Positions 2,899 through 9,433 of a stretch of DNA of 64,000 bases are shown here, in pieces. Made by a program: the position numbers and the translations under genes. The notes beneath the pieces are model-generated. The model was not told the origin of the DNA, ran no database searches, and worked only from the letters and a program-made list of their open reading frames with translations. The stretch covers positions 1,571,001 to 1,635,000 of the forward strand of contig NZ_CP086235.1 of the NCBI RefSeq assembly GCF_023612095.1. The letters run 5' to 3'. Source of the stretch: Cytobacillus firmus. Its GTDB lineage: Bacteria; Bacillota; Bacilli; Bacillales; Cytobacillaceae. Every line of letters starts with the position of its first letter. The first letter of the stretch is position 1.

Positions 2899-3762
2899 AT
2901 GGTTCGTGCTGTCCAGCAAATTTTTATTATATTTGTATTAATTTTAGTTCTAGCAGCTCTGCCAAAAATTATATCTGTTGATCCATTGAGCGGGAGTCTG
3001 CAATGGAGCTTCGAAAGTCTGCCGCATATTTATGGAGATTTTATTTCTGAAATAAGCAAGGGCAGCCTTGGTACCTATGAGCTTGGGATGCAGACACGTC
3101 CTATAGCCGGGGACATTGCTGATAACTTTTTTACCAGTCTCCTGATCGTATTGATTGCTGTAAATGCATCCTTAATTATAAGTCTAATTTTCGGGGTATT
3201 TATCAGCCGCTTCAGGCTTACTAAGCTTTTTGGGGCATTCATGAATATTCTTGCGGCCATACCTGACTTTATCATCATAGTGATGTCTATGATTCTTGCC
3301 GTTAAAATATATAAAATGACCGGTATCAGAGTGATTTCACTCAGGCCGGATGGAGGAGCCCTTAACACCTGGTTTCCCACAGTGCTTGCAGCGATTGCCC
3401 CGACACTATATTTATTTAAGCTCGTGTCGGTCAAATATTATCAGACAAGCGGGGAGGACTACATTAAGACTGCAGTTGCTAAAGGAATGGGCTTAAATTA
3501 CATAAACTTTCAGCATGTCTTCAAAAATTTAGAGCCATTTATCAAATCTGAACTTGTCAAAGTGATTTCCCTGGCTATTGGAAATCTCTTTATTATTGAA
3601 CATATTATGAATGTTTCCGGCATAACAAAATTCATTTTTCAGAGCAGCGGAGTTCAGCCGATTGCAATCGGCTTGTTTGCAATGCTTCTGATTTCTTTAA
3701 TTGTCTATATTTCTAATAGACTCATATTCTATCTGTTTAAACGGGGTTTTATCTATGAATAA
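2899..3762 (+). CDS. OppB-type ABC transporter permease
   Basis: A 287-residue inner-membrane protein with about six hydrophobic segments and the OppB/DppB layout: an N-terminal membrane helix, a long outside loop (residues about 25-75), then the BPD_transp_1 core. The cytoplasmic EAA-like loop reads DYIKTAVAKGMGLNYINFQH, the ATPase contact in peptide importers. The start ATG follows gggggg. Its stop lies 8 bases inside the next gene, which encodes the OppC-like partner, so the two are translationally coupled. No OppA, OppD or OppF gene is near, so ATP supply must come from elsewhere, or the pair does something unusual. Confidence 0.85.
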   Translation: MVRAVQQIFIIFVLILVLAALPKIISVDPLSGSLQWSFESLPHIYGDFISEISKGSLGTYELGMQTRPIAGDIADNFFTSLLIVLIAVNASLIISLIFGVFISRFRLTKLFGAFMNILAAIPDFIIIVMSMILAVKIYKMTGIRVISLRPDGGALNTWFPTVLAAIAPTLYLFKLVSVKYYQTSGEDYIKTAVAKGMGLNYINFQHVFKNLEPFIKSELVKVISLAIGNLFIIEHIMNVSGITKFIFQSSGVQPIAIGLFAMLLISLIVYISNRLIFYLFKRGFIYE

Positions 3763-6163
3763 GCTGATAAAAATAAATTACTCCTTAATTATCGGAACTG
3801 TTATGGTTACCGGCTTGCTTTTTCTTAGCATATTCGGGCCTATTCTGGCACCGCATTCATTAACATCGGTTTTAGAAACACAATATACAAACGGGAAGGT
3901 TCTGGCACCGCCAATGGAGCCTTTTGAATCCTCTTCCTATCCGCTGGGCACCGATAAATGGGGTTATGATATCTTATCCATGATTTTATATGGATTAAGG
4001 TACACTGTTTTTATTGCAGCTGCTGTGACTGTTATAAAAATGGCATTTGGAACAATTATCGGTTTGTATGCGGGCACCTTGAAAAGGACGCCAGGCTGGC
4101 TGATTGCTTTCGAAAATGCATGGAGCTATGTACCTCTGTTTCTTATCCTGTATTTTTTCCTTGCCCCAATAAGCTTCAACAGTACTCTTAAGCAAAATGT
4201 GTTAATTGTTTATTTTATTGTCATTGCGTCAGTCATCAGCATTCCAAGCATTGTATCTTCTGTAAGGCTTAAAACCGCACAGTTATATAAGTCTGTTTAT
4301 GTTGAAGCTGCAAAAGCCCTGGGGGCCGGAAAACACCGTCTGATCTGGAAGCATGTTTTTCCTCAGTTAAAGGAAACGTTCCTGGTAATGTTTATACTTG
4401 AAATTGTGTACGTAATCGCCCTTATGGGCCAGCTGGCACTAATAAATATATTTGTCGGCGGAACCATTATGAGATATGACCCCATCATCTTCCTTTCAGC
4501 AACAAAGGAACTGGCGGGATTGGTTGGTCAGGCAAGATTAAATATTTATGGCAGCACCCATATATTAATTGCACCATTAGCGGTCCTTTTACTTGCAACT
4601 GTGTCTTTCAGTCTGCTGGCAAATGGACTGAAGAACCGTTTTCAATCAAACTATCAGCGTACTCCCTGGATTAAGACTGGGCATGAGCCATTAATAAGGC
4701 CCTCCAGAAAACAATATGGCCGAAAAAAGAAATTCTGGTCATTATCCGGCCCTAAAGCCGGCTTTGCTGCATTAGTGATTGCTTTTGCAGGTGCAGGTGT
4801 CTATGCTGTGGCTGCAAAGAATTCAAATACAGGCGTCCAAAGCGGCAGCAAGGCGGATTATAAAATTGATCTGGAAATGAACGCTGAAGGCTATTTTACT
4901 GCTAATGCAAATATTCAGTTGAAAAACAAATCAGATAATAACTGGAATGAGCTTATCTTTTATTTCATTCCGAATGTTTTTAAAGAGGGACATTCATTTG
5001 ATTCTGTTGAAGGATCGTCTGAAGCGAAGATCGAAAAAGTGACAGTGAATGGGCAAAAAGCTTCTTTTAAGCTGGATGGTGATACGCTGACAATAAACTT
5101 AAAACCGGAAATGAAAGATAAAAGCAGACATAAGGTGGAGATCCAATATGGATTTACAGTCCCAGAGGGAGGCAGCCGTTTTTCAAAAGCAGGCACAAAT
5201 TATTATCTTGCTCAATGGTACCCAATGGCTGCAGTCTATCAAAAAGGCAAATGGAACAAAGAGCCTTATATGGAGGGGCTGGAAACATTTCATACAGGCT
5301 TCTCTGATTTCAAAGTTTCCTATAAGCTGCCTGATGGGTATTCCCTGGCTTCCACAGCAGAAATAGATCCGGCAAAAGGAAAAAATGAGGGGACAGTTAA
5401 AGCCAAAAAGGTCAGGGATTTCTTCATTGCAGTCATGAAGGATATGAAAGTTTATGAAACGGAAGCGCAAGACGGTGTGAAGGTCAGACTATTTTCAAAA
5501 GGGAATCATGACAAAAACCCGGAAGCATCGTTAACACTGGCTAAAAAAGCACTATCTTTCTATCAGAATAAAATTGGAGATTACCCGCATGAGCAGCTTG
5601 ATATTGTTTTGGATGAAGGGCAATTCATGGAATATCCCGGTATAGTCACTATAAATCCTTATATTGATGATAAAAGGTTTTATGATATTTCTATTGTCCA
5701 TGAAATTGCTCATCAGTATTTTTATGGAGCAGTAGCCAATGACCCATACAACAATGCGTGGATTGATGAAGGAATCACTGAATTTGCCACCTCTATGTAC
5801 TTCTATGCAGGACAAAATCAAGCTGAACAGCAGGCATTTGGCATCTCCCATTATCGGATGGAGGCAATTGAGGAAGCTGGTTTAGGCAGGCAATATTCAA
5901 ATGTGCCGGTTAATGAGGTAAAGCATACAGGATATATTTATGGTCAGCCTGCTCTGGAGATTTTACAAATGATTCAGGAAAAGTATACCTTGAAAGGGGA
6001 ATCTCCAAAGGAAGTGGGGATGCAGTTTTTGTCCGATTATTATCAGAAGTTCCGCTATAAAGAGGTAGATACGAAGGAGTTTATATCCTTCACAAAGGAT
6101 TACTTCAGTGTTCCGACAGGCTATTTCAATAATTGGATTGATACATCTAAACTGAACAGTTAA
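3755..6163 (+). CDS. OppC-type permease fused to an M1-family metallopeptidase
   Basis: A continuous 802-residue frame. Residues 1-306 form an OppC-like permease: an N-terminal helix, the SSYPLGTDKWGYDILS segment typical of OppC/DppC, about six membrane helices, and the EAA-like loop VEAAKALGAGKHRLIWKHVF. A basic stretch (RPSRKQYGRKKKFW) precedes a seventh helix (about 334-353). By the positive-inside rule this puts the rest outside the cell. Residues 360-802 resemble M1 gluzincins: FMEYP near 624-628 (counterpart of GAMEN), HEIAH at 649-653, the third zinc ligand E672 in WIDEGITEF (HExxH-x18-E), then GYIYGQPALEIL. The zinc residues are all present, so it should be active. The start ATG overlaps the OppB-like gene. 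No frameshift is needed to join the domains. Confidence 0.85.
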   Translation: MNKLIKINYSLIIGTVMVTGLLFLSIFGPILAPHSLTSVLETQYTNGKVLAPPMEPFESSSYPLGTDKWGYDILSMILYGLRYTVFIAAAVTVIKMAFGTIIGLYAGTLKRTPGWLIAFENAWSYVPLFLILYFFLAPISFNSTLKQNVLIVYFIVIASVISIPSIVSSVRLKTAQLYKSVYVEAAKALGAGKHRLIWKHVFPQLKETFLVMFILEIVYVIALMGQLALINIFVGGTIMRYDPIIFLSATKELAGLVGQARLNIYGSTHILIAPLAVLLLATVSFSLLANGLKNRFQSNYQRTPWIKTGHEPLIRPSRKQYGRKKKFWSLSGPKAGFAALVIAFAGAGVYAVAAKNSNTGVQSGSKADYKIDLEMNAEGYFTANANIQLKNKSDNNWNELIFYFIPNVFKEGHSFDSVEGSSEAKIEKVTVNGQKASFKLDGDTLTINLKPEMKDKSRHKVEIQYGFTVPEGGSRFSKAGTNYYLAQWYPMAAVYQKGKWNKEPYMEGLETFHTGFSDFKVSYKLPDGYSLASTAEIDPAKGKNEGTVKAKKVRDFFIAVMKDMKVYETEAQDGVKVRLFSKGNHDKNPEASLTLAKKALSFYQNKIGDYPHEQLDIVLDEGQFMEYPGIVTINPYIDDKRFYDISIVHEIAHQYFYGAVANDPYNNAWIDEGITEFATSMYFYAGQNQAEQQAFGISHYRMEAIEEAGLGRQYSNVPVNEVKHTGYIYGQPALEILQMIQEKYTLKGESPKEVGMQFLSDYYQKFRYKEVDTKEFISFTKDYFSVPTGYFNNWIDTSKLNS

Positions 6164-7617: not shown

Positions 7618-8534
7618 CTAAATATATCGGACCTTCCTGGTGAAAAATGATTTTAATCCCTCTGCGAATATATTAAAAGTTAAGATGGCATAGGTCATGG
7701 CAAATGCCGAGAAAAAGGAATCCAAATTGGGCCTCTTATATCCTCAAAGGCTTTCATCATCATCATTGGCCAAGAAATCGAATTATTGACCAATTGCCAA
7801 TCTCCTGTCATGGATTGAACAAAATCCTGCGAAATAAAAATGCCGACAAACCCTAATTGACCAAGCAGAAACATGACTTTTCCAAGATCAGTAACCATAT
7901 ATACAAGAAGCTTACTATATAAAAGAGGAAGATAGTATATTCTGAAAAGCCTGTATGGTGAAGCTCCGGCAGCAATCCCTCCATATATATACTCTTTAGA
8001 TGAAATCTGATCAAATTCCAGCTTTATCATTTCGGCAGCACGGGGCATTTCTGCCAGAGCAATAATAAGGAGCAGGAATAAGGGGCGGTATTCACTCAGT
8101 AAAAATGGCGGCAGCATGGCAAGAAGCATGATAATGATGATGGTTGGAATATATGACAGCAGTCCATTCAGCCATTTTAGCAAAAGGTGTGTACCCAGCC
8201 ATTTTTTGTGTGCAAGAAAGGAGAGCGGAATGGCCAGTACATAGCGAAGGACAGTTATACAGGCAACAAGCAAAATGGTTTCTTTTGCTCCCAGGATGAT
8301 CAGGCTGAGCATATCCCGTCCGCTTTTGTCAGTGCCCAATATGTAATCCTCTGATGGCGGATAAGGCGGTATAACTGGCTTCTTTTCCTCATTTAGGATG
8401 TATGTAATCGTTGTTAGCTCACGGTCAACAAATGGAAGATATGGTCCTGCAAATGTGATTGCCAGCAATAGCAGCAGCAAAAAGGTTCCTAAGCAAAATA
8501 AAGCATGTTTCCTGATCCAAAATAAAAATCGCAT
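7618..8534 (-). pseudogene. OppC-type ABC permease, frameshifted near its C-terminus
   Basis: From ATG 8534 (MRFLFWIRKHALF…) the frame reads through an OppC-like permease: YILGTDKSGRDMLSLI, the EAA-like loop with GGIAAGASPYRLFRIYYLPL, and six membrane helices. It stops at 7695 after DIRGPIWIPFSRHLP. In another frame from about 7727 to 7618 the sequence reads LDSFFSAFAMTYAILTFNIF and then AEGLKSFFTRKVRYI, which is exactly how OppC proteins end. One base missing in the run cccaattt would join them. The gene starts 6 bases after the OppB-like gene. An in-frame upstream ATG (8567) lies inside that gene and is less likely. No ATPase or binding-protein gene is adjacent. Confidence 0.75.
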
Positions 8535-8539
8535 CTCCC

Positions 8540-9433
8540 TCACACCCTTTCCTTTTGGACGAGCCATAATTTTGCTGTCTGTGAAAGGATGATAGTTAAA
8601 AACATGATGAAGAGGAAGGGAAGCATTAGGGACAGTGCCTTAATTTCATCATTAGATGATATGCTGAATAGAAGTTCCTTGCCTGCCCCGTTATAGCCTG
8701 CCAGCTTTTCAATGATTGGGAGGCTTGATAGGATATAGAGCATCACCAGCTGCGACTGGTTCATAATGGGGGACCAGCAATTCCAGAGCATGTGAAGAAG
8801 TGCTTTAAATTCGCCAAGCCCTTTTGCATATGCTGTGCGAACATACTCTTCGCCCATTTCATTTTCAAGAGCAGCCGATGTAAAACGGGACATGTGCAAA
8901 AATGGAAACAGGGATAATGAAATGAGCGGCAAAAAAAAGCTATACCAATTTTCATGTCCATATAGCTTAAAGTGCGGAAGACCATGCTGCATCATCAGAA
9001 TGAAAAGATACTGTATGGCAATAAACAGAAAAAAATCGGGTATGGAAGAAAACATCCAGGAAAGAAAATTCTGGAGTTTCCCGGTGAATTTTGTTCTCCG
9101 GTAAAATTGGACAGCACCCATTAGTGTGCCAAGAAGCATGCTGACCATGAAAGCAGGCAGAACAATTTTTAAGCTGCGCGCAACAAATATTCCAGCTTCA
9201 TCACTAACTGGGCGTCCGGTGCGGGCTTCCCCTAATCCTTTTTCAGTTAAAATATGGCCTGTGAAATCTTCAATTCTTTCCACATACAGTTCAAAGCTGA
9301 AGGGGTAATCTGCTTCAATTTGAAAGGCCGATAAAAAGGTTAATTCCTTTTCTCTTGGAAGAAAAAGAATCATGATAAATCCAATAATAATTAACATAAA
9401 TACACCTGTTGATTTTAAAATGCTTTGCAGCAA
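8540..9433 (-). CDS. OppB-type ABC transporter permease
   Basis: A 297-residue membrane protein with an N-terminal helix (MLIIIGFIMILFLP), an outside loop of about 70 residues, and five further helices. The cytoplasmic loop YVRTAYAKGLGEFKALLHML matches the EAA motif of peptide-importer permeases. It lies directly before the OppC-like partner. Its layout repeats the pair at 2899-6163 (outside loop with ARTGRPVSD, compare QTRPIAGD there), which suggests an old duplication followed by divergence; only the other copy gained a peptidase. The 205 bases to the divergent yprA hold both promoters. Confidence 0.8.
   Translation of the reverse strand: MLQSILKSTGVFMLIIIGFIMILFLPREKELTFLSAFQIEADYPFSFELYVERIEDFTGHILTEKGLGEARTGRPVSDEAGIFVARSLKIVLPAFMVSMLLGTLMGAVQFYRRTKFTGKLQNFLSWMFSSIPDFFLFIAIQYLFILMMQHGLPHFKLYGHENWYSFFLPLISLSLFPFLHMSRFTSAALENEMGEEYVRTAYAKGLGEFKALLHMLWNCWSPIMNQSQLVMLYILSSLPIIEKLAGYNGAGKELLFSISSNDEIKALSLMLPFLFIMFLTIILSQTAKLWLVQKERV

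Follow-up and report, generated by a model that had tools for sequence, protein, structure and literature searches.

A conserved fusion of an OppC-type permease with a predicted outward-facing M1 metallopeptidase in Cytobacillus firmus and its relatives

The 64,000-nucleotide stretch of Cytobacillus firmus DNA analysed here, referred to throughout as the window, contains two overlapping genes for peptide-transporter-type permeases, the second of which continues into an M1 metallopeptidase. The features of this locus are as follows.

2899-3762, + strand: OppB-type permease, the partner subunit, 287 aa (BPD_transp_1, E 2.5e-8)
3755-6163, + strand: OppC-M1 fusion gene, an uninterrupted 802-residue frame from ATG to TAA (profile matches; present in 50/193 family genomes)
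3755-4672, + strand: OppC-type permease domain, residues 1-306, six helices (BPD_transp_1; helices from the model)
4301-4372, + strand: EAA loop, residues 183-206, between helices 4 and 5 (motif mostly conserved in aligned copies)
4673-4747, + strand: basic loop, residues 307-331, predicted to be cytoplasmic (charge; low pLDDT)
4748-4825, + strand: helix 7, residues 332-357 (model; hydropathy places it at 335-353)
4838-6148, + strand: two-domain M1 metallopeptidase, residues 362-798, predicted to lie outside
5624-5638, + strand: FMEYP, residues 624-628, a GxMEN-type motif with E626 (alignment)
5699-5713, + strand: HEIAH, residues 649-653, the zinc site with H649, E650 and H653 (alignment)
5768-5770, + strand: E672, third zinc ligand in HExxH-x18-E (alignment)
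5939-5941, + strand: Y729, presumed catalytic tyrosine (aligns with the M1 tyrosine)

The first-pass annotation had described one frame in which an OppC-type permease is followed by a basic loop, a seventh helix and an M1 peptidase, and this description is confirmed by both profile searches and a structural model. The fusion gene overlaps the OppB-type gene of the window by 8 bases. Residues 99-296 match BPD_transp_1 (44.9 bits, E 1.4e-11; Pfam curated cut-off 26.4) and residues 595-780 match Peptidase_M1 (31 bits, E 2.5e-7; Pfam curated cut-off 27.7), while the OppC_N match falls under the Pfam cut-off and neither FtsX nor ABC-2 permease domains are among the Pfam matches of the fusion. The best OppC/DppC/NikC-type equivalog, Opp4C, scores 75.3 bits and does not reach its NCBIfam cut-off of 350, and the top scores of the permease among the NCBIfam profiles are with importer families. 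In the peptidase, FMEYP, HEIAH and E672 were found where they had been reported, with the HExxH-x18-E spacing. GxMEN is the exopeptidase consensus of the M1 family, of which FMEYP keeps the Met and Glu and differs at the glycine position and the Asn. The tyrosine matched by Y729 is one that we take to be catalytic. In the permease, the EAA loop, presumably the usual ATPase contact in such proteins, is conserved, so an ATPase should still be able to bind. Three promoter-like sites were found before the pair against 1.6 expected from shuffled sequences, which is not significant.

The model of the fusion protein (pLDDT 90, pTM 0.81) and hydropathy both place the seventh helix close to the residues first assigned to it (334-353), and the basic-loop blocks at 301-330 have a pLDDT of 57-60. 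As defined by hydropathy, the loop at 289-334 carries 12 K/R and one D/E. In addition, 13 of the 26 stand-alone M1 relatives with starts listed begin like lipoproteins, as judged by eye. These charges, the starts of the stand-alone relatives and the model together predict that the M1 peptidase of the fusion faces the cell exterior, which supports the outward orientation suggested earlier. Comparison of the model with solved structures gives the M1 part the fold and two-domain make-up of known M1 peptidases; M1 structures take up the whole list of matches, so that the lack of other folds in it carries no meaning. The Deinococcus radiodurans M1 peptidase (6a8z) and the lipoprotein-like M1 proteins of Bacilli share these properties and the zinc site, but they are free or single-anchor enzymes, whereas the M1 part of the fusion sits on a transport protein. 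By sequence, the closest solved permease is the importer subunit DppC. The type I importers of the Opp/Dpp type (E. coli DppC, 8z1v; M. tuberculosis Rv1282c, 8j5q) have in common with the fusion a BPD_transp_1 permease, an OppB-type partner and an EAA loop. The fusion differs from them by helix 7, by a covalent and predicted outer M1 domain, and by having no adjacent ATPase or binding protein.

A survey of relatives confirmed that the OppC-M1 fusion is a genuine, conserved gene fusion. By our count, 50 of the 193 genomes in the window's family carry it, spread over 9 genera, which rules out an assembly artefact and does not bear out the alternative of two separate genes. These genomes hold 51 fusion proteins with 42-100% identity, one genome having two copies. 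The adjoining OppB-type gene, which the earlier annotation had named as the partner, overlaps the fusion in 51/51 copies, by 8 bases in 50 and by 5 in L098, where the alignment begins one residue late. Among the matches listed, the full fusion is present in 32 of the 36 genomes that represent the window's genus, its own genome included. Elsewhere in the genus, G016 has the permease alone, G033 and G006 have decayed copies (the G033 match extends to residue 425 and has four internal stops), and G035 has permease and M1 in separate frames with 90% and 85% identity, a state that we read as a damaged copy. A named genome collection yielded 12 full-length loci, five of them from Cytobacillus firmus or C. 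oceanisediminis, and in an order-level sample of 397 genomes the fusion was found in four among the matches listed, all within the window's family. Eleven plasmid records had a match, and none of these spans 80% of the query.

Purifying selection maintains both the permease and the M1 domain. Among copies with intact active sites, 11 pairs gave a permease dN/dS of 0.025-0.20, and in the ten of these pairs with measurable dS the M1 part gives 0.09-0.19; constraint on the loop and helix 7 is mostly weaker than on the domains. All six key M1 positions are intact in 43 of the 51 copies. The position of Y729 is replaced in seven copies with inactivated sites and is absent from L017 (G012), which is truncated at 712 residues. 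Because the three g32 copies (L098, L099 and L100) all have Leu in place of Tyr, the active-site losses were counted as two clades. These inactivated copies raise the question of whether the main role of the M1 domain is that of a tethered receptor, which would replace the binding protein, capture peptide N-termini and feed the channel, with cutting being secondary and abandoned in some lineages. No binding-protein gene adjoins the pair, and the inactivated copies keep the entire M1 domain under constraint (dN/dS 0.27 in L060-L061 and 0.24 in L029-L062) and with a confident M1 fold in a model. However, the input alignment for that model consisted mostly of active relatives, most copies have a full active site, and tblastn shows that unfused relatives outside the fusion clade likewise have no adjacent binding protein, so the orphan state predates M1. 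We consider the receptor explanation unlikely.

The history of the fusion was followed in a permease tree of 110 sequences, several inner branches of which are poorly supported. The fused proteins fall in one clade (0.955), with unfused ones intermixed. The nearest sequences outside it are unfused permeases of 357-359 residues that end just past helix 7 (L053, L111, L113 and L114), and those at a greater distance have 307-312 residues and lack helix 7. By hydropathy, helix 7 corresponds to the terminal part of unfused relatives of 353-363 aa, and it is therefore probably older than the fusion. In the simplest order of gain, a six-helix permease first acquired helix 7 and later M1. Clade members without M1 are L043, L057/L058, L078, L083 and four loci of genus g43; among these, helix 7 is kept in L043, L057, L078 and L080 and is gone in L079, L081, L082 and L083. 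A tblastn search for M1 remnants behind unfused permeases at 11 loci, with E up to 1, gave short weak matches only, none of them convincing, so M1 loss in lineages other than that of G033 rests on the tree, and the weak inner branches make the number of losses uncertain. Judging from these sequences, M1 looks like an accessory part: several lineages lack it or carry it in inactivated form while retaining the permease, which suggests that transport does not need the peptidase. The same losses of M1 without loss of the permease favour an explanation in which the permease is only an anchor and M1 works as an aminopeptidase at the cell surface, in the manner of its stand-alone relatives, with no functional coupling to transport. 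About half of those relatives start like lipoproteins, so anchoring alone would be useful. A lipid anchor, however, is simpler than a seven-helix permease, and mere anchoring fits poorly with two separate OppC-type fusions (the second is described below) and neighbouring M1 and permease genes at three more loci. Overall, a pure anchor appears quite unlikely.

The permease pair of the window lacks the remaining components of an importer. No OppA, OppD or OppF relatives were found within the window's first 40 kb by tblastn with the OppA, OppD and OppF of L079. The Opp4C model detects nine OppC-type permeases in the same genome, seven at >=260 bits and two at 78 and 65 bits. In the stretches read, each of the seven high scorers belongs to a complete system that has its binding protein and ATPases; one of these systems has a fused ATPase of 585 residues. 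The two low scorers are the fusion and a member of a second pair, so that both orphan permease pairs of the genome are at the fusion locus. This second OppC/OppB-type pair, at 7695-9433 on the - strand, is also without ATPase or binding protein, and pairs like it occur in some Cytobacillus relatives and in L103. The six stretches that hold the Opp ATPases of the genome contain no Opp-type ATPase without its own permease (orphan OppD/OppF), which makes ATPase sharing the simplest energy source; we infer that the pair is powered by the OppD/OppF-type ATPases that the complete Opp systems of this genome encode. All five loci of genus g43 have the pair placed behind oppA-B-C-D-F, with an unfused permease in every locus but L084, which has the fusion. 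Thus the co-encoded binding protein and ATPases of a complete Opp/Dpp importer are absent at the window and adjacent in g43. On the opposite side of L080, the genes match ArsC/Spx-like and MecA families, which we take to be the classical opp neighbourhood. A hairpin with a T-rich tail, found by eye between oppF and the pair in g43, suggests that they are neighbours and perhaps separate transcripts; a pattern scan of L079 reported no hairpin.

A second OppC-M1 fusion was found in another family of the same class (L185 in G226; L185:5697-9284). This 1195-residue protein combines an OppC-type permease, helix 7 and an M1 domain with an intact site; its gene is preceded by an OppB-type gene and lies at a yprA-yprB locus. 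Its BPD_transp_1 score of 23.4 bits is slightly under the cut-off of 26.4. Although L185 shares permease type, helix 7, intact M1 site and preceding OppB-type gene with the fusion of the window, it differs by about 330 further C-terminal residues, which no Pfam family matched. In the trees, its permease and its M1 part each branch outside the window's clade, and we read this as a second, independent fusion, so that the permease-M1 architecture would have arisen at least twice. A search of 398 class genomes with the L185 protein gave no further OppC-M1 fusion among the matches listed, and nine more long or odd frames were opened and contained none: three are OppB-OppC fusions (L225-L227), one is a YceI-M1 protein (L229), two are long M1 proteins (L231 and L232), and at three loci there were only permeases.

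The placement of M1 on an ABC permease is in itself a known idea. ABC-2 permeases with an M1 domain carry it on an ABC membrane protein, but they belong to another permease family, and no ABC-2 family matched the fusion of the window. FtsX-type permeases with a C-terminal M1 domain (about 1400-1660 aa in Bacilli) were seen here in five order-level genomes and also in class-level relatives. Examples are L186:2978-7561, L187, L188, L198 and L199, with L209 and L222 partial; FtsX was assigned by Pfam for L186, L209 and L222, and by length, start and M1 match for the others. M1 sits at the C-terminus of an ABC permease in both kinds of protein, whereas the FtsX-M1 permease is of the FtsX type and has an ATPase gene directly before it in L186-L188. 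No paper on an OppC-M1 fusion was evident in the part of the open-licence literature that was covered.

FtsEX controls cell-wall hydrolases by movement across the membrane, and by analogy the ABC part of the fusion could drive or gate the outer peptidase rather than transport. The FtsX-M1 proteins speak for this, and an ATPase gene adjoins the one Pfam-tested order-level example. However, BPD_transp_1 permeases are, to our knowledge, transport channels, and permease copies without M1 persist. We hold gating to be decidedly improbable. Alternatively, the pair might assist in exporting or releasing a peptide, with M1 maturing it as it leaves the cell. In two clusters (L175:5601-11094 and L074:1349-8207), an exporter-type ABC gene is followed by an M1 gene, which in L074 ends at the contig end, beside orphan OppB/OppC-type genes; from their gene content, these clusters possibly combine peptide export, processing and uptake. 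No ABC exporter is among the listed genes beside the pair of the window, however, and the best scores of the permease are with importer families. We regard export by the pair as very unlikely.

Our tentative preference is for an importer channel that borrows its ATPases and has peptides trimmed at its mouth, a reading that we hold to be plausible and short of probable. The OppC half of an orphan OppB-OppC channel, both halves of which are made from overlapping genes, would carry a covalently tethered, outward M1 aminopeptidase, which helix 7 and a short linker keep near the membrane. At the channel mouth, the peptidase would trim N-terminal residues from peptides that serve as nutrients or as signals, and the pair would most probably import peptides, driven by the OppD/OppF-type ATPases of the complete Opp systems encoded at other sites of the genome. 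We infer the sharing of ATPases, the import, the aminopeptidase activity and the coupling of trimming to transport. The reading is supported by the conserved fusion, the intact sites in 43/51 copies, the constraint on both domains, the OppB-type gene in 51/51 copies and the retained EAA loop, as well as by the g43 pair behind oppABCDF, DppC as closest solved permease, the predicted outward topology and the second OppC-M1 fusion. Against it stand the absence or inactivation of M1 in several permease-keeping lineages, the g43 hairpin between oppF and the pair, and the 13 of 15 stand-alone M1 loci with neighbours listed that have no adjacent Opp-type permease. In addition, type I importers as a rule need a binding protein, and the pair has no gene for one next to it. 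Sequence data do not discriminate this reading from its alternatives. A broader and rather unlikely possibility is a new class of peptide importers without a binding protein, in which the tethered M1 domain would capture, trim and hand over peptides to a pair that runs on shared OppDF-type ATPases, would serve as a pure receptor in some lineages, and would have arisen at least twice.

Which signal peptides and nutrients a Gram-positive cell takes up depends on both peptide trimming and peptide import, two steps that are usually considered separately. The fusion suggests that peptides may be cut and taken up at one place. If so, an enzyme can serve as the core of a rebuilt type I importer, with a channel half that has its own outer aminopeptidase and neither ATPase nor binding protein adjacent. 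As natural variants of the same permease have the peptidase intact, inactivated or missing, the contribution of the enzyme is directly testable.

Several other arrangements of these domains were observed. OppB and OppC are joined in one protein of 667-694 residues at L225:3282-5315, L226:2188-4269, L227:2888-4888 and L175:5601-7604. In L181:2237-8648, genes for an M1-less FtsX-type permease of 1233 aa and for an ATPase directly adjoin an orphan OppB/OppC-type pair. L231 and L232 encode long M1 proteins, and part of L231 (L222) matches FtsX. The stand-alone M1 proteins of L075 and L076, 571-578 aa in length, have altered zinc sites. In L229, the gene for a YceI-M1 protein overlaps an OppB-type gene, and at L233:1378-4469 the gene for a membrane-anchored YceI-M1 protein overlaps that of a lone OppB-type permease.
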